Below, one piece after another: positions 44,869-53,563 of a stretch of 64,000 nt of DNA (the stretch's first letter is position 1; every line of letters starts with the position of its first letter). The notes under the pieces are model-generated. The model was not told the origin of the DNA and made no database searches. It saw nothing but the letters and a program-made list of their open reading frames with translations. The stretch is from Actinomycetota bacterium (GTDB lineage Bacteria > Actinomycetota > Actinomycetes > Propionibacteriales > Propionibacteriaceae), in assembly GCA_020161795.1 (NCBI GenBank), contig JAIUOR010000033.1, positions 1 through 64,000 on the forward strand. Direction: 5' to 3'. The position numbers were made by a program, and so were the translations under genes.

Positions 44869-44947
44869 GCCCGGGAGTCTAGGAGACGAAATCCCATCCC
44901 CGGGATCGCCTGCCCTCCGGCCATCGGGACCGCGCTAGAGTGGCGGC

Positions 44948-45003
44948 AGGCGGTGGGGCTCGCCTCGTCAGAAACCGTCGCTTCGGCGACCAACGGTCCC
45001 TAC
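44948..45003 (+). promoter_or_regulatory. Leader resembling the fluoride (crcB) riboswitch, upstream of enolase
   Basis: A stem AGGCG (44948-44952)/CGCCT (44961-44965) closes an 8-base loop whose GGGGCT (44955-44960) can pair with GGTCCC (44995-45000), followed by TAC. A UUCG-capped stem GTCGC/GCGAC (44977-44990) lies between, preceded by AAACC. Loop size, the long-range pairing, the AAACC and CCTAC positions match the fluoride riboswitch. The normally conserved GATG of the loop start reads GGTG, and the conserved TGATG reads CAACG. Enolase is a known fluoride target and a known fluoride-riboswitch gene. A second hairpin (45018-45061) may be the expression platform. Family assignment is tentative. 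Confidence 0.45.
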
Positions 45004-45134
45004 CTCGTGCACAGCTCGGCTGGACACGGAGGTGGGGCTTTCGCTCACTTTCCGCCCAGCCTTCGCGTCCGGCCGGGCTGTTGCCGTTACCGGGTTCCAG
45101 AGCGGAACCCGAGGTGACCGGAAAGGTGACGGCG

Positions 45135-46400
45135 ATGGCTTTCGAGATCGAGCGAGTGCAGGCCCTCGAGGTGCTGGATTCCCGCGGACGTCCCACGCTG
45201 AGCGTGACGATCGAGTTGGCGGACGGAACCCACGCCGAGGCGGGCGTCCCCTCCGGGGCATCCACCGGGACGCGGGAGGCGGTCGAACTCCGCGACGGCG
45301 ACCCCGCCCGGTTCGGCGGGGCCGGGGTGCTCACCGCGGTCGGCAATGTGAACGGCGAGCTCAACGCGACCTTGTCCGGTCGCCCCTGGGACGATCTGGC
45401 CGAGGTCGACCAGGCGATGCGCGACCTGGACGGAACCCCGAACAAGGCCCGGCTGGGCGCCAACGCGATCATCGGAACGTCGATGGCGCTGGCCCGGGCG
45501 CTGGCGACGTCCGCGGGCAGGCCGTTGTACGAATGGCTGCCCGGCTTCGGCCAGCCGGCCCGGCTGCCGGTGCCCTGCTTCAATGTGCTGAACGGCGGCG
45601 CGCACGCCCCCAATCCGCTCGACTTCCAGGAGTTCATGGTCTGCCCGCTGGGCGCGCCGTCCATGGCCGAGGCGGTGCGAGCTGGCGCCGAGGTCTACCA
45701 GGCGCTGCGCAGGCGGCTGGTCGCCGGCGGGCACGCGACCGGGCTGGGGGACGAGGGCGGCTTCGCCCCCGACCTTGCCGAACCCGAGGAGGTGCTGGAG
45801 CTGATCGTGGCATCCATCCAGGACGCCGGCTACCCGCTGGGCACGACCGGTGTGGGCATCGCGCTCGACCCGGCGGCCTCCGAGTTCTACGCCGACGGCG
45901 GGTACACGGTGAGCGGCTCCCGGCTCTCCAGCGCGGACCTGATCGCCCGCTACGCCGCGATGCTCGAACGGTTCCCGATCTGGAGCATCGAGGACGGCCT
46001 GGGCGAGCAGGACGCCGGCGGCTGGCAGCAGCTCACCGCCGCGCTCGGAGAGCGGGTGCAACTGGTCGGCGACGACAACTTCTGCACCAACCCGGCCATC
46101 ATCGCCGCGGCGATCGAGGACGGCATCGCCAACGCCGCGCTGATCAAGGTGAACCAGATCGGGACGGTCACCGAGACCCTGGAGGCGATGCGGATCTGCC
46201 ACGAGGCGAGCTACGGCCAGATGGTCTCCCACCGCTCCGGCGAGACCCCGGACACCTTCATCGCCGACCTCGCGGTGGCCACCGGCTGCGGCCAGCTGAA
46301 GACCGGCGCCCCCGCCCGCGGCGAGCGCGTGGCCAAGTACAACCGCCTCATCCAGATCGCCGCCGAGCGGCCCGACCTCCCCTACGGGCTCGGGCGCTAG
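45135..46400 (+). CDS. eno: Enolase (phosphopyruvate hydratase)
   Basis: A 421-residue enolase interconverting 2-phosphoglycerate and phosphoenolpyruvate. The order of active-site motifs is complete: His157 in NGGAHA, Glu166 in FQEF, then GLGDEGGFAP, ALDPAASEF (metal Asp), IEDGLGEQD (metal Glu), GDDNF (metal Asp), ALIKVNQIGT (catalytic Lys), SHRSGET (His) and LKTGAPARGER (Lys). It starts at ATG 45135. It lies behind a fluoride-riboswitch-like leader and not beside ftsB and its usual neighbours, so it may be a second enolase. Key residues look intact. Confidence 0.93.
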   Translation: MAFEIERVQALEVLDSRGRPTLSVTIELADGTHAEAGVPSGASTGTREAVELRDGDPARFGGAGVLTAVGNVNGELNATLSGRPWDDLAEVDQAMRDLDGTPNKARLGANAIIGTSMALARALATSAGRPLYEWLPGFGQPARLPVPCFNVLNGGAHAPNPLDFQEFMVCPLGAPSMAEAVRAGAEVYQALRRRLVAGGHATGLGDEGGFAPDLAEPEEVLELIVASIQDAGYPLGTTGVGIALDPAASEFYADGGYTVSGSRLSSADLIARYAAMLERFPIWSIEDGLGEQDAGGWQQLTAALGERVQLVGDDNFCTNPAIIAAAIEDGIANAALIKVNQIGTVTETLEAMRICHEASYGQMVSHRSGETPDTFIADLAVATGCGQLKTGAPARGERVAKYNRLIQIAAERPDLPYGLGR

Positions 46401-46471: not shown

Positions 46472-48142
46472 TCAGAGCGACGGCGACGCTGCCACAGCCT
46501 GCAGGGTGCCCGCGCTGAGCTGCCGGACCGTGGCCAGCTCGCGCTCCAGACCGGGCAGGTCACTTGGTTCGCCGGCCAGCCGCTGGTAGGTGTCGACCTG
46601 TTCGGCCAGGAGTTCCAGGTAGGCGTCCAGGCTTCGCGCCAGAGCGGCGGACGCTTGTCCGGCGGTGACGTACCCGGCGCGGTAGAGGTTCTTCTCCACC
46701 TGCCAGCCGACCGTCCTGCGGAAGTGGCGATGGACCAGCGGACGGAACAGGATCATCGGCACCGCCCAGGACAGCAGCTCCAGGTGGCTGTCGAAGACCG
46801 TGTTGAGGTGGATCTCCGGAGCGGTGAAGCCGACCGCGGACGGGGTGGGAACCGGGAGCCTCAGCTCGACGCCGAGCGCCGTCTCGATCCGCGCCCGGAG
46901 GCGCTGGACGAAGGCCTCACCGGTCTGCCGGATCGACTCCAGACCCTCCTCCAGCAAGGGAGCCAGCGCGGCGGCCGTGGCCTCGACCAGCGGTGCCAGG
47001 GACGTGGTGAGCTCGAGCTCCAGCCAGCTCCGGAAGGCGCGGGTCTCGCCCGCCAGGGTGCCGTGCCAGGCCGGCATCGCGGTTTCGAGCCGGCTCCCGA
47101 CGTGCCGGACGAGGCCGGTGAGTTGGCGTCCCAGCAGCTTGTCGGCCTGGGCACCGATCCGCTGGATCGTCGGCCGCAGCTGCGCCTGGGCCCGGACGCG
47201 AACGCCGGTCAGCCGCGTCCGCTCGTCGGCCAGCACCCCGCGGAGGTCGGCGACCGCCCGGTCGTGACCGGAGGCGGCGGCCTGCGCAAGTTCGAGACAG
47301 CCCAGCACCTCGCCCGCGATCCGTCCGATCCGGTGCCGGGCCAGCGCGTCCCTGGCCTCGGCGCGATGCCGGTCCAGTTCCCGCAGGTGCTCGCGGAGCC
47401 GCTCCCGCGATTCCGCGTGACCGGGCCGAGTGGAGAACGGCAGCACCGGCGGTGGGTTCGGCAGCCGCGCGGCGAGCTGCTGACGGACATGCGCGGCCAC
47501 CTCCCGTGCGTCCGGTGGGGTGAGCAGGTCGATCTTGGTGAGCACGATCGTCAGGCTGGGCGTATGCGGGCGCAGCAGGTCGAGCAGCCGTAGGTCGGCC
47601 TCGGCCAGCGGCTGGGTGGCGCTGACCGCGACCAGCGCGGCCCCCGCGTTCGGGAGCCAGCCCAGGCTGGTGGCTGTGTTCGCCTCCCAGCTGCTCTGGG
47701 TGCCCGGGGTGTCCACCAGGGTGAGACCGGGCAGATCGGCCAGCGCGGGAGATCGGACCTCGACCCATTCCACATCGCGGCGGTTGTCCGGATTGCCGGC
47801 CTGGGTGATCCACTCGCCGAGTTCTCCGAGCGGCGCGGCAGCGGGCTCGTGGCCCCGTCGCTTCACTCGCGCCGTCAGCCGGTCGTCGTAGCGGACGCGG
47901 GTCACTACCGCGGTCGTGGGAATCGCCTGGACCGGCAGCACGTCCTCGCCCAGCAGCCAGTTGAGCAGGGACGACTTACCGGCCTTGAACTGACCGAGCA
48001 CCGCCACCACGTGGTCGCCGTCGCGCGCCTGCCGCACCGCCGTCAGGCAGCGCTCCTCCAGGCCGGCGAGGCGATGACGCCGGGCGATCCCGGCCAACTC
48101 GGCCAGCGTCGCGTCGACGAACTCGGCCGGAGGGACGGACAC
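46472..48142 (-). CDS. Dynamin-family GTPase
   Basis: A 556-residue large GTPase. The P-loop GQFKAGKSS is at residues 50-58, the switch threonine in IPTTAVVT (75-77), DTPG at 144-147 and TKID at 202-205. The following helical region (about 260-480) and a hydrophobic segment near residues 478-498 (LELLSWAVPMILFRPLV) resemble bacterial dynamin-like proteins that bind and remodel membranes. I start at the GTG at 48142, with GAGGG upstream, eleven bases after the phosphatase gene, so the two are likely co-transcribed. Membrane fusion, fission or phage defence are possible roles. Confidence 0.85.
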   Translation of the reverse strand: MSVPPAEFVDATLAELAGIARRHRLAGLEERCLTAVRQARDGDHVVAVLGQFKAGKSSLLNWLLGEDVLPVQAIPTTAVVTRVRYDDRLTARVKRRGHEPAAAPLGELGEWITQAGNPDNRRDVEWVEVRSPALADLPGLTLVDTPGTQSSWEANTATSLGWLPNAGAALVAVSATQPLAEADLRLLDLLRPHTPSLTIVLTKIDLLTPPDAREVAAHVRQQLAARLPNPPPVLPFSTRPGHAESRERLREHLRELDRHRAEARDALARHRIGRIAGEVLGCLELAQAAASGHDRAVADLRGVLADERTRLTGVRVRAQAQLRPTIQRIGAQADKLLGRQLTGLVRHVGSRLETAMPAWHGTLAGETRAFRSWLELELTTSLAPLVEATAAALAPLLEEGLESIRQTGEAFVQRLRARIETALGVELRLPVPTPSAVGFTAPEIHLNTVFDSHLELLSWAVPMILFRPLVHRHFRRTVGWQVEKNLYRAGYVTAGQASAALARSLDAYLELLAEQVDTYQRLAGEPSDLPGLERELATVRQLSAGTLQAVAASPSL

Positions 48143-48152
48143 GGCAGCGCCC

Positions 48153-48737
48153 TCAGCGCGCCAGCGCGGTCTCGAAGGGATCGTCCTTGCGGTTGACGAC
48201 CACCAGTTGCCAGCCCACCGCATCGTTCCGCAACAGGCTCCACGATCCGGTGCGCGGGGGCAGGTGCCCGCCGTCGATCGGGATGGGCGCGAGGGCGTCG
48301 AGCACCAGCCGGAGCACCGCGTCGTGGCTGACCACCACGATCGGGCCAGGCTCCGACACCAGGGCCTCCAACGCGGACCGAGCCCGCTCGATCACGGCCT
48401 CCGCCGGCTCGACCCCTGGCGCGGCCTCGAGCGAGCCGTACCGGGCGATCACCTCCTCCTGCGAGGTTCCGTCGAACTCGCCGTAGTCGCGGTCGAGCAG
48501 CCGGGCGTCGGTCTCCAGCCGCACCCCGGCGGACTCCGCGATCGGCGTGGCGGTCTGGACGGCCCGCTTCAGTGGACTCGCGATCACTCGCGTGATGCCC
48601 AGCCCGCCGAGGTGGCGGGCAAGGTCACGGGCCTCGGCGACGCCGACCAGATCCAGTTCCGGATCGAGTCGGCCACGTAATCGTCCCGCCACATTGAGCG
48701 GTGTGCGGCCGTGGCGGCATAGATAGATATCAACCAT
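48153..48737 (-). CDS. Histidine phosphatase family protein
   Basis: A 194-residue phosphoglycerate-mutase-like phosphatase. CRHGRTPLN (residues 6-14) contains the phosphorylated histidine, ASPLKRAVQTA the usual Arg contact, and VVSHDAVLRL the second catalytic histidine. The ATG at 48737 follows AGGAG at good spacing. It removes phosphate from a small molecule or protein; the substrate is unknown. The downstream dynamin gene is 10 bases away. Confidence 0.9.
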   Translation of the reverse strand: MVDIYLCRHGRTPLNVAGRLRGRLDPELDLVGVAEARDLARHLGGLGITRVIASPLKRAVQTATPIAESAGVRLETDARLLDRDYGEFDGTSQEEVIARYGSLEAAPGVEPAEAVIERARSALEALVSEPGPIVVVSHDAVLRLVLDALAPIPIDGGHLPPRTGSWSLLRNDAVGWQLVVVNRKDDPFETALAR

Positions 48738-48880
48738 CACTTTCTCCTTCTGATTCCGGAAGAAAATAGCGAGTTCGCCGATTCGCCCGCGATTTCGGAA
48801 ACCCGAATCGCAGATTCACCTCGGCACCCGATTTCGGGAATAAGTAGGCAGGGCCGGCGGTCCGGCCCCGCCTACGTACC

Positions 48881-49129
48881 TCAGACCGCTGCGGAGATCC
48901 GGCCCCGCTGGGCCGTCGCGACATCCCCCAGGTAGGAGGGCACGCACTCCCGGCAGTACATCCGTCGCCCGGGCAGCCGCCGGGTCGCCGGGCTACCCAG
49001 CGAGTGGACTTCCTCTTGAGCGTAGGCCGGGTAGGCGTGGTCCAGGCAGAGCCCGGCTCCACACACCCGGCACATGGCGTTCGCCGCGGTCTCGCGGTTC
49101 AACTGAACCGCACAATCGAAGCACTGCAT
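48881..49129 (-). CDS. DUF2180 small zinc-ribbon-like protein
   Basis: An 82-residue protein rich in paired cysteines: MQCFDCAVQLNRE, CRVCGAGLCLDHAY and a later YCRECVPSY. This matches the DUF2180 family of small actinobacterial proteins, which probably bind zinc; the role is unknown. An excellent GGAGG site lies five bases before the ATG. Confidence 0.85.
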   Translation of the reverse strand: MQCFDCAVQLNRETAANAMCRVCGAGLCLDHAYPAYAQEEVHSLGSPATRRLPGRRMYCRECVPSYLGDVATAQRGRISAAV

Positions 49130-49526
49130 TGCTCCTCCTCGGTCAACCCTCGCCCCGCCCGCCTTGGGAGGGGCGGCCATCCGGCCGACCGAGGGGCCTG
49201 TCCCCGATCGGGGCAGCCACCGCACAACAAACACGGCGGTTGCCAACCAGATGGTTGCCAGGGACCGTTGGCGATATTCATCGCGCTTGTGGCGAGCCCC
49301 TCCGCCGTGTTGAAACCCATCATGCCACGCTCTGCGCATGACACAAGTGGGTCGCGCCGCTATTTGGATGCCTCCGCAGCAAATGCCCAGGTATGGCTAA
49401 TCCGGGAAATGGCGGAGGGCTCGCCCTAAACAGCGCAGCGATGCCTACGCCACCTGCGCGATGACCGTCACCCGACCGGACGGGCGCCGACCCGACCGGG
49501 AAGGATGGGCAGCGGGCCGGTGAGGC
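49130..49526. other. Non-coding stretch with a spaced inverted repeat
   Basis: About 400 bases upstream of the DUF2180 gene and downstream of the membrane-protein gene. The only structure seen is an inverted pair, 49291-49306 (GGCGAGCCCCTCCGCC) and 49411-49425 (GGCGGAGGGCTCGCC), identical apart from one extra base and 104 bases apart. The enclosed sequence is AT-richer than its surroundings and could be a small RNA or a mobile-element scar. No gene recognised. Confidence 0.5.
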
Positions 49527-50432: not shown

Positions 50433-51932
50433 TCAGCTCCGGACGAAGAGCCGGTCGAACAGGTCCATGCCATGGCTGGTGGGTTGCGGCACGCCGGGCA
50501 CCAGCCGGTGGCTGCGAGAGCCGTCCGGGAGCCTTTCGGCACGCAGGAAGCAGGTGCCTGGACGGCCCTCGTAGTGCCGGGCGAGGGCGTGGAAGTGGGT
50601 CACCAGCAGCACCCGGACACCGTGGGCGAGCAGGGCGTCGATGATGTCGGCGGCGATCCAGGAGCCCTCGACCTCGTCGGTGGCGGCGAACGACTCGTTC
50701 ATCAGCACCAGGTCGCCGGGCCGGACGCGATCGACGATCGCGCTCATCCGGGTCAGCTCCTCGTCCAGCTTGCCGCTGCGCAGGTCGTCGTCCTCGCCCC
50801 GCCGGAAGTGGGTGTGGACGGCGCCGGCCAGGCTCGCCCGGAAGTGCGCGGCGGGCACGAACATGCCGGCCTGCAGCAGCAGCTGCGCGAGACCCAGGCT
50901 GCGCAGGAAGGTGGTCTTGCCGCCCTGGTTGGCGCCGGTGATCACCAGCAACGGGATCGTTCCGGCCAGGTCGTTGCCGACCGGCACCCGCCCGGAGCGA
51001 ACCGCCAGGTTCAGCGGCACCAGCCCATCCGTCTCCACCTCCGCGCCCAGCCGTTCCGCCCCGGTGCGCGGGACGAGGGCGCCGGGCCAGCAGACCCCCA
51101 CTCCGGCGGACCGCAGCCGGTCGTGGAGCTGACGGCAGCCGACGTAGAAGCCGGTCTCCCAGCGCAGTTGCCGGAAGAAGCCCAGCACGTGCTCGTTGGC
51201 CTGCGCCGCCACGGCGGCGATCTCGTGCAGCACGTCGGCGTGCAATGCGCCGAGCGCGCGGGCTCCGGATTCGTCTCGTTCGCCCAGGGTGAACTGCAGC
51301 CGGCCGCGCGGGTTGAACCCCAGTAGCGCCCACCACGGTCGCCGGCCGGCGGGTGGCGGCAGCACCTCGAAGTCGCCGAGCAGGCCGTTCGTCCCGATCG
51401 TGGCTCGGGTGGTCAGCCCGGCAGGGAAGGCGAGCTGACCCAGCAGGCTTCGGATCCGGTGCAGATAGTCGGGATCGAGATCGTCGACCAACCGCCGGTG
51501 GAGCTGCCGCAGCCCGGGAGCGTGGACGACCGCCAGCTGCTCGCCGGCCAGGGCCGCCAATTCGGTCAGGAACGGCAGGAGCGCGCCCAGCCCGTGGACG
51601 GCCCGGGCCAGCGCCGAGTCGGCGGTGCGCCCCGACCACAGCCAGGCGCCGCGCTGGCTTTCCAGCGCCCGCCCGGCCAGCTCGAACAGCCGCTGCATTC
51701 CGGAAGGATCGGCCAGCACATCGGCCAGGATCTGCTGCCGCCACCGGATCTGGCCGGGATCGGTCAGCGGGTTCAGCAGCACGGACGGACACAGCTGCTC
51801 GAGATGCCGGTCGGGCAACATGACCGTCAGCACCGGCTCCAGGTCGAGGTCGGCGACCAGATCATCGGCGCCCGGCGCCGGCGGCTGGTCGCGCACGGCG
51901 TCGCGGTCGGGGAAGAGCAGGTGGACTCTCAT
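50433..51932 (-). CDS. MutS-like ATPase, second member of a tandem pair
   Basis: A 499-residue protein with only the core/lever and C-terminal ATPase regions of MutS; no mismatch-recognition domain. The Walker A motif is GANQGGKTT at residues 333-341. Walker B is LVLMNES, with Asn412 where MutS has Asp, then Glu413. The switch TH is present (LLVTHFHAL, His446). The start overlaps the stop of the partner gene by four bases (ATGA), so the two are made together and probably form a heterodimer. Function unknown; DNA-structure binding is the family expectation. Confidence 0.85.
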   Translation of the reverse strand: MRVHLLFPDRDAVRDQPPAPGADDLVADLDLEPVLTVMLPDRHLEQLCPSVLLNPLTDPGQIRWRQQILADVLADPSGMQRLFELAGRALESQRGAWLWSGRTADSALARAVHGLGALLPFLTELAALAGEQLAVVHAPGLRQLHRRLVDDLDPDYLHRIRSLLGQLAFPAGLTTRATIGTNGLLGDFEVLPPPAGRRPWWALLGFNPRGRLQFTLGERDESGARALGALHADVLHEIAAVAAQANEHVLGFFRQLRWETGFYVGCRQLHDRLRSAGVGVCWPGALVPRTGAERLGAEVETDGLVPLNLAVRSGRVPVGNDLAGTIPLLVITGANQGGKTTFLRSLGLAQLLLQAGMFVPAAHFRASLAGAVHTHFRRGEDDDLRSGKLDEELTRMSAIVDRVRPGDLVLMNESFAATDEVEGSWIAADIIDALLAHGVRVLLVTHFHALARHYEGRPGTCFLRAERLPDGSRSHRLVPGVPQPTSHGMDLFDRLFVRS

Positions 51933-53464
51933 CGCAGTCGCTCCGCGAGATCGGCACCGGAGAGCCCGTGCCGGGCGGCGAGCGCCACCGCGTGGGAGCG
52001 TCCCCCGGGCGGCTGGGGACGGAACCGGAAGGTGGGGCGGGTGGGATCCTCCGGCTCGACCTGGCCCACCAGGCTCACCGACGGTTCGGTGCCGAGCACC
52101 AGTTCCTCCAGGAAGGTCACCCAGATCACCCGGCAACCCAGCATCCGGAGCTGCTCCACCACCTTGGCGGAGAGCAGGAGGGCATCGGCGGCCGAGGTGG
52201 CGGAGAACAGCTCGTTGAAGATCAGCAGCGCGTGGGGGCCGGCCGCGGTGAGCGCCTCGTGCAGCCGAGCGAGCTCGTCGGCCAACCCGCCGCGGTCGGG
52301 GGCATCGGGTGCCGGGAAGTGGGTGAGCACCGGCATCGTCCAGGGCAGGGAGGCCGACTGCGCGGGGACGGGAAGCCCCAGCCCGGCCAGGTAGCACAAC
52401 TGTCCGAACCCGCGGGCGAAGGTGGTCTTGCCGCCCTGGTTCGGCCCGGTGACGAAGACCACCCGCTCGTCCGCGGTCAGCAGCAGGTCGTTGGCAATCG
52501 GCGGCGAGTCGGATCGGACGGCCAGCGCGAGATCGACCATCCCGCGCACGCGCACCGCCCCGTCCGGCGTGCTGCGCGGCAGGCACCATGCCACCCCGCG
52601 GGCGCTCAGCTCGTCCATCAGGTGCAGGAAGTCGAGGTAGAACCGCAACTCCTGGGCGAGCCGCTGCAGGGCTGCCGGCAGGAAGTTCCTCCGGCTGCCG
52701 ACGAATCGATGCAGCTCGGCGAACAGCTCCGGGAAGCTCGTCGCGACCAGCTCGACGGCCTGCGCCTCCACGTGATTGAGCGAACGCTCGGGCCGGACCC
52801 AGGTGGCCTCCGGCTGCTCGCCCGGCTCGTAGAACCGGGCGAAGGTCGCCGTGATCTGCTCGCCCCAGCCGGGCCGGCCGGTGTCGGGTGCGACCCACAC
52901 GGTGCCGTTGTGGATGCCCAGCTCCATCGAACAGCCACGGATCCGATCCAGGACGGTGTTCCGGGCCAGCTCCTGGAAGCCCGCGCTCGCAACCTGTTCG
53001 GACAGGTAGCCGGCCAGCCCGCGCAACCCCGCCGAGGCCGGGCGCAGCTCGTCCAGCCCTCGGGCAGCCTCGGCGATCGCGCCGGTGAACCGGGCGATGG
53101 CGTCCGCCAGCTGGATCTCGGCGGGCCACTGATAGTGCGCCTTGCGGTAGTTCTCGATCGATCGACGGGCTCCGGCGACGGCCGTCGTCAGCCTCCGGGC
53201 GAGGCCGCGGAACTCGGGGCGGCGCAACTCGGCCACCACTGCCTGCCGGTAGGCCACCGTTCCGGGTTCGGACGGCGGTGCGTACCAGACCGCGCGCTGG
53301 AACTCGCCGGCGCCGGACAGTGCGCAGGCCAGCTGGAGATCGTCGAAGCCAGGCGGTGGACCGGACGTGCGATAGGCCAGTTGACCCGCCGGGTCGAGCA
53401 GGCTCGGCGATGCGACGGACTCATCGGGACGACGGACCTGTGGTCCGGTGATGACAGCGAACAT
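51929..53464 (-). CDS. MutS-like ATPase, first member of a tandem pair
   Basis: A 511-residue MutS-core protein without mismatch or connector domains. Walker A is GPNQGGKTT at residues 340-348 and Walker B is LLIFNELFSATS, with Asn417 then Glu418. Where its partner has the conserved TH switch, this protein reads VTFLEEL, with Phe451 in place of His. AGGTGGGG before the ATG at 53464 supports the start. It overlaps its partner by ATGA. The two differ in one catalytic residue, which suggests a division of labour within a heterodimer. Confidence 0.85.
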   Translation of the reverse strand: MFAVITGPQVRRPDESVASPSLLDPAGQLAYRTSGPPPGFDDLQLACALSGAGEFQRAVWYAPPSEPGTVAYRQAVVAELRRPEFRGLARRLTTAVAGARRSIENYRKAHYQWPAEIQLADAIARFTGAIAEAARGLDELRPASAGLRGLAGYLSEQVASAGFQELARNTVLDRIRGCSMELGIHNGTVWVAPDTGRPGWGEQITATFARFYEPGEQPEATWVRPERSLNHVEAQAVELVATSFPELFAELHRFVGSRRNFLPAALQRLAQELRFYLDFLHLMDELSARGVAWCLPRSTPDGAVRVRGMVDLALAVRSDSPPIANDLLLTADERVVFVTGPNQGGKTTFARGFGQLCYLAGLGLPVPAQSASLPWTMPVLTHFPAPDAPDRGGLADELARLHEALTAAGPHALLIFNELFSATSAADALLLSAKVVEQLRMLGCRVIWVTFLEELVLGTEPSVSLVGQVEPEDPTRPTFRFRPQPPGGRSHAVALAARHGLSGADLAERLR

Positions 53465-53563
53465 ATCCCCACCTCTCATTTTGGTAGGGACCGTCAGCTG
53501 GCGCGGTTGGCGGCGAGCCCCATCGCCGTGGCATCCACTTTACTCCGCGCCGGCCGAGCGCGG

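Follow-up and report, generated by a model that had tools for sequence, protein, structure and literature searches.

The leader of a second enolase gene in a Propionibacteriaceae genome very probably contains a fluoride riboswitch, of a form that appears to be widespread in actinobacteria. It would carry matched base swaps around the fluoride pocket and control the gene through a hairpin switch, a reading based on comparison of sequences. The site lies on the plus strand at positions 44948 to 45003 of the window, i.e., the whole 64,000-nucleotide stretch of contig JAIUOR010000033.1 that was analyzed. All parts of the aptamer are present there, and 131 bases separate it from the gene. The initial annotation had seen in these letters a relative of the crcB aptamer with several conserved bases altered, and had left a variant ligand, a decayed switch, and a chance fold as possible meanings.

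The aptamer ahead of the second enolase

Position numbers follow the Thermotoga petrophila aptamer, in a register set from what we take to be its crystal sequence. Pairs A6-U38 and A40-U48, as named in the accessible passages of PMC11586693, fall into place in this register, A6-U38 being a long-range reversed Watson-Crick pair; the linchpin pair A40-U48 is also described in the available part of PMC8752731. P1, loop, second stem, pseudoknot, and UAC were read directly from the letters. The features are as follows.

44948-45003, plus strand: fluoride (crcB-type) aptamer, form G6/C38/A39/C41 (RF01734, 22.5 bits; model R2, see below, 55.0 bits)
44949-44952 with 44961-44964, plus strand: P1, GGCG/CGCC
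44953-44960, plus strand: 8-base loop, GUGGGGCU
44977-44981 with 44986-44990, plus strand: UUCG-capped second stem, GUCGC/GCGAC
44955-44960 with 44995-45000, plus strand: pseudoknot GGGGCU/GGUCCC, six pairs
45001-45003, plus strand: UAC after the pseudoknot
44953 and 44991, plus strand: G6 and C38, in the place of the reversed Watson-Crick pair A6-U38 (from joint counts)
44993 and 45001, plus strand: A40 and U48, in the place of the linchpin pair (from the letters)
44994, plus strand: C41 in place of the usual U41, going with G11-U44
45135-46400, plus strand: second enolase, 421 aa (NCBIfam TIGR01060, 535.9 bits)

The stems, 8-base loop, GGGGCT/GGTCCC pairing, and following TAC thus read as first described, and so do the two departures, GGTG for GATG in the loop and CAACG for TGATG before the pairing strand. 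P1 with its 8-base loop is followed by AAC and the second stem (AACCG stands between them), and loop positions 8-13 pair with 42-47 through six pairs, two of them wobbles, G11-U44 (44958/44997) and U13-G42. Pair 6-38 is present as G-C instead of A-U, judged from letters and joint changes and with a putative geometry, while A40-U48 is present in its letters, its pairing being putative. Position 41 is C and not U. The gene downstream is a fluoride-resistance gene; enolase had been taken for a recognized gene of the class and is indeed named, next to exporters, Na+/H+ antiporters, and formate hydrogen lyase, among the usual fluoride-riboswitch genes in the accessible text of PMC11139923. The site shares with RF01734 P1 and the 8-base loop, AAC, the second stem, the six-pair pseudoknot, A40/U48, and the following AC, as well as fluoride-type downstream genes and a competing downstream strand. 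It differs in having G6-C38 rather than A6-U38 and C41 with G11-U44 rather than U41.

Covariance models

RF01734 scored the window leader (301 bases) at 22.5 bits (E of 3.4e-4), with a gathering cut-off of 34, and in the 3.47-Mb genome the window site ranked third, the next match reaching 14.5 bits. As the score is below the cut-off, we regard the site as a variant within the class and do not place it in RF01734 as it stands. A match to PhotoRC-I (RF01716) at the same leader was also sub-threshold (20.8 bits against a cut-off of 45) and was rejected.

Two further models were built. R1 derives from ten variant leaders (alignment A2, with that of genome G016 left out). R2 comes from 16 hand-picked leaders, taken from R1 and from the pattern loci described below, each with one or more FluC-like ORFs after it. 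No enolase leader is among its rows, and 15 of the 16 were placed outside the family of the window (the family of L211 was not given). R2 depends partly on the window: R1 includes the window leader, and 9 of the 16 R2 rows came from matches of R1. With R2, the window site was the top match in the window, at 55.0 bits (E of roughly 1.9e-13); the rest of the window held two further aptamers, after which the next match fell to 21.4 bits. The model also recovered all 11 enolase leaders offered to it (47.7 to 61.4 bits). Together with the leaders of the orthologues, these scores bear out the proposal of a related aptamer.

At an E value of ≤0.001 (rough), R1 matched 18 of 117 genomes of the family and 63 of 394 of the class, the weakest of which may be due to chance (e.g., L113, outside the descriptor used below). 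R2 at the same threshold matched 53 of 226 class genomes. RF01734 exceeded its cut-off in only 12 of the 394, and 18 matched at E ≤1e-4. Given 63 genomes by R1 against 12 by RF01734, fluoride control in the class seems to be largely unannotated.

Expression platform

Two features of the leader bear on the way in which the gene would be controlled.

44936-44941, plus strand: TAGAGT, a −10-like hexamer, 7 bases before P1
44998-45009 with 45025-45037, plus strand: competing hairpin, in the minimum-energy fold (duplex P of 0.060)

By inspection, a TAnnnT hexamer lies 7 to 11 bases ahead of P1 in 15 of 16 enolase leaders (L106 is without it), and transcription probably starts just ahead of the aptamer. 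A consensus promoter scan of the leader found none, and a terminator scan found no U-run terminator. Pairing of positions 42-57 with downstream sequence was compared with dinucleotide shuffles in 15 enolase leaders, leaving out L166 (its site is ahead of another gene) and L106 (outside the pattern). The duplex had a P of ≤0.05 in 10 of the 15; the window (0.060), L048 (0.087), and L042 (0.13) were above this value, and L044 and L054 had no competing downstream duplex by this test. The L041 hairpin shows a paired change, CUAUCUCG with CGAGAUAG.

At low fluoride, CCCUACCUCGUG would pair with CACGGAGGUGGGG, and the resulting hairpin would stop expression, most likely by ending transcription, a step to which we give moderate confidence. 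With fluoride and Mg2+ bound, the pseudoknot, the 6-38 pair, and the A40-U48 linchpin would hold the strand that otherwise enters the hairpin, and the second enolase would be made, offsetting the fluoride-inhibited enzyme. Sequence, conservation, joint base changes, neighboring genes, and the alternative pairing are observed; that fluoride is the ligand, that it turns the gene on, and at which step it acts are our inference. It is quite possible, if not what we expect, that a fluoride riboswitch acts here at a step other than termination (e.g., translation or Rho) in which the hairpin takes part. The missing U-run would fit such a step, as would the FluC leaders of the same form (105 distinct ones among the matches listed), in which the complementary strand carries the likely ribosome site. 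Among these listed leaders, 90 of the 105 contain GYAGG, compared with 23% of base shuffles, and 72% have complementary runs of ≥8, compared with 12%; the duplex energy of 42-52 is weak (P ≤0.05 in 34 of 105). However, the window hairpin ends ca. 97 bases before the enolase start, which is too far for direct masking.

Spread, downstream genes, and the ligand

The other enolase of the genome (G000:C1:53444-54670) is 55% identical to the second one. A protein search over the 117 genomes of the family defined the second-enolase group, of which the 18 best matches were examined. Eleven of the 18 have the GGTG..CAAC form: G000, G090, G064, G116, G008, G061, G080, G110, G097, and G024 at 76 to 100% protein identity, and G016 at 66%. 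At this place, six others carry A6 (G025, G003, G067, G063, G027 with U38, and G047 with A38; 63 to 71% identity), and in G073 the leader is cut by the contig end. As had been anticipated for a real element, the leader is thus conserved upstream of related enolases. In a tree of 47 enolases, seven A6 leaders (six A-U and one A-A) form one clade (100/99) that adjoins 13 G-C leaders, all inside one paralogue clade (100/97), which also includes two rows in which no aptamer was found (one is a cut contig). Outside this clade there are the G-C leaders L166, L208, L110, and L277 and the A-U leader L307 (L166, L277, and L307 are long branches). That one enolase gene is served by either A6-U38 or G6-C38 leaders argues for a single ligand.

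A pattern scan of genome contigs with G6 and C38 fixed gave at least 120 loci. The pattern loci listed, together with the R1 loci and with redundancy kept, provided 146 sites with downstream ORFs. Among these listed matches, a FluC-like ORF lies within 1.6 kb downstream at 109 of the 146 sites, and two or more do so at 98 (overlapping ORFs may count twice); the other 37 sites are without one, some being followed by unrelated or no Pfam families. Pfam CRCB was matched by all 10 actinobacterial proteins tested and by all four candidates from other phyla, and two tested downstream proteins had no Pfam match. Other downstream genes code for enolase, a CLC channel, Na+/H+ exchanger, Usp, MFS, NADH-dehydrogenase-like, dynamin-like, and PP2C proteins. 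The altered bases recur in many actinobacterial families and are found ahead of FluC across the class.

G6-C38 aptamers also occur in Myxococcota, Pseudomonadota, Bacillota, Acidobacteriota, Planctomycetota, and Eremiobacteria, with the same 6-38 state as the window and with FluC, CLC, Na+/H+ exchanger, or other genes downstream. Unlike the window, these keep U41, and their pseudoknot is mostly GGAGUY/GACUCC. Among the matches listed, 17 of 18 chosen loci from other phyla reached the Rfam cut-off (all but L141), in contrast to none of 18 actinobacterial ones, so the C41 form lies mostly outside present annotation.

The idea that the G6/C38/C41 form binds a different ligand seems improbable to us. 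Bases near the pocket do differ, and variant riboswitch classes with changed ligands exist (PMC7266159, in the part available), but the genes downstream are the fluoride set (FluC above all, CLC, enolase, Na+/H+ exchanger, and Usp), so a changed ligand is not supported. Both forms also serve one gene within a single enolase paralogue clade, the G6/C38 aptamers of other phyla mostly score above the Rfam cut-off as just given, and the changes would preserve pairs rather than open the pocket.

Altered bases as probable coupled swaps

As far as alignments can tell, the unusual bases resemble matched swaps at the fluoride pocket and not decay. Two couplings would be involved: A6-U38 becomes G6-C38, and U41 becomes C41 with the G11-U44 wobble. 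Joint states were counted with a descriptor blind to positions 38, 39, and 41 and free at 6, run on loci from searches that do not fix them; it is a relaxed version, as a stricter one missed many canonical aptamers. Chance or misread hits were kept as “other”; by eye, these were two of the 116 actinobacterial hits, seven of the 45 from Bacillota, and one of the 20 in another locus set. In the 116 unique actinobacterial hits, positions 6/38 were A/U in 49, G/C in 62, and other in 5, i.e., the two chance matches and three real mixed pairs (A/A, G/U, and A/C). The six resolved Myxococcota aptamers (11 loci) were divided equally (A/U in three and G/C in three). Bacillota (45 hits from 90 loci) had A/U in 38, the remaining 7 being chance or misread by inspection. 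Bias of RF01734 or R1 is an unlikely cause of the rarity of mixed pairs, since a mixed pair should be closer to either model than the opposite state is.

In a 45-row alignment, in which all four mixed aptamers then known were deliberately included, 6-38 was A-U in 23, G-C in 18, G-U in 1, and other in 3, and its covariation score was reached by none of 500 shuffles. It should be noted that sliding the partner by +3 (position 41) still gave 0.765, against 0.878 for 6-38, so lineage contributes much and alone makes 6 and 41 vary together. Among the matches listed (274 unique aptamers, of which 113 are pattern loci with G6, C38, and G11 fixed and C or U at 41 and 44), 149 of the 151 aptamers with C41 have G11-U44, and one of the 123 with U41 has G-U at this place. 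All four coupling states occur in this listed set: A-U with U41, A-U/C41/G-U (5), G-C/U41 (26), and G-C/C41/G-U (143). Position 39 appears to be free, with 21 A and 17 G in the Bacillota A/U aptamers.

According to the accessible text of PMC8004769, base 41 of the Bacillus cereus aptamer is in contact with the positions equivalent to 43 and 44 (after shifting its numbering by an offset of three inferred from passages of PMC8752731 and PMC8004769), which fits the coupling of C41 with G11-U44. The available part of PMC11077080 describes U41 as highly conserved, reports that U41A left the B. cereus switch unresponsive, and states that a pseudoknot wobble matters for switching; from the effect of U41A, C41 could weaken the window switch.

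A decaying fluoride riboswitch that has lost its pocket would account for an RF01734 score under the cut-off and for several altered bases, but we find it very improbable. The altered bases are common to all 10 readable enolase leaders of at least 76% protein identity (window included), i.e., they are invariant in the 10 leaders of A2, where the stems vary by paired changes. Two-sided changes occur in two of the five pairs of the second stem, and all six pseudoknot pairs are standard or G-U in every leader. Many actinobacterial families retain the altered bases, which recur upstream of FluC throughout the class, and G6/C38 also occurs in other phyla. Conservation and coupled swaps together make decay and chance unlikely; the minimum-energy fold does not single out the site (z of −0.25 for the aptamer and −1.13 with the hairpin), but a chance fold of GC-rich DNA has a negligible probability in view of the R2 E value, conservation, and gene context.

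Further aptamers and relation to known systems

Two more aptamers lie ca. 4 and ca. 8.5 kb from the enolase leader, both on the minus strand. Neither they nor the apparent coupling of the altered bases had been noticed in the initial annotation.

53478-53536, minus strand: fluoride aptamer A6/U38/G39/C41 (RF01734, 39.7 bits, over the cut-off)
51929-53479, minus strand: MutS domain V protein, after this aptamer (Pfam PF00488, 49.2 bits)
50433-51932, minus strand: second MutS domain V protein (Pfam PF00488, 66.9 bits)
49258-49307, minus strand: aptamer of the enolase-leader form with A7 for U7 (R2, 45.5 bits)
48881-49129, minus strand: DUF2180 protein, first gene after the 49258 aptamer (Pfam PF09947, 31.4 bits)
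48153-48740, minus strand: histidine phosphatase family protein (Pfam PF00300)
46472-48223, minus strand: dynamin-like GTPase (Pfam PF00350)

R2 placed the A6/U38/C41 aptamer at 53484-53528 on the minus strand (45.1 bits); aptamers of this kind have GGGGCU/GGUCCC and C41 as in the enolase leader, whereas A6-U38 is kept. No Rfam match over its cut-off was found at 49258-49307. The A7 form is also present in L106, L116, L233, and L284, and in L116 it lies 2.6 kb from an enolase leader, also ahead of a MutS domain V gene. On contig C17 of the same genome, a canonical A6-U38/U41 aptamer stands ahead of a 204-aa ORF, Usp-like by eye, and two CRCB genes, all on one strand. The genome thus has four aptamer settings (A6-U38/U41, A6-U38/C41, G6-C38/C41, and G6-C38/C41 with A7). 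Rather speculatively, the coupled swaps might retune the pocket and give one genome a graded fluoride response, although we consider this unlikely. Judging from the aptamers, a fluoride regulon would probably include the MutS-like, DUF2180, histidine phosphatase, and dynamin-like genes.

We found no earlier G6-C38 or actinobacterial fluoride aptamer in literature listings and accessible passages, and an earlier description may exist. Covariation studies of RF01734 name P1, P3, and the pseudoknot in their accessible text (PMC13273304 and PMC7657543; figures beyond reach), and the 6-38 covariation may already be known. The available part of a 2024 review (PMC11139923) puts only ca. 15% of Flucs under riboswitches, a figure that may be too low. 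The coupled swaps amount to a natural mutagenesis of an anion-holding RNA pocket, and the 6-38 and 41-44 contacts are directly testable.

Some minor observations were made at other loci. A dynamin-family GTPase follows a G6-C38 aptamer (minus strand, 6956) in a Pseudomonadota genome (L231), like in the window, and a thiolase gene, unexpected for the class, follows a variant aptamer in G061 (L115:345-1343, minus strand). One genome of the family (G114; L306 and L307, contig C14) has ten RF01734 matches at E ≤0.05, nine of which lie within ca. 25 kb of one contig. An nhaA-I riboswitch (L216:1048-1096, plus strand) lies ca. 320 bases from an opposite-strand fluoride aptamer. Both aptamer forms stand back-to-back in L184 (4632-4690, minus strand, and 4744, plus strand), with ca. 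50 bases between them, and similar divergent pairs are present in L118, L158, and L234.
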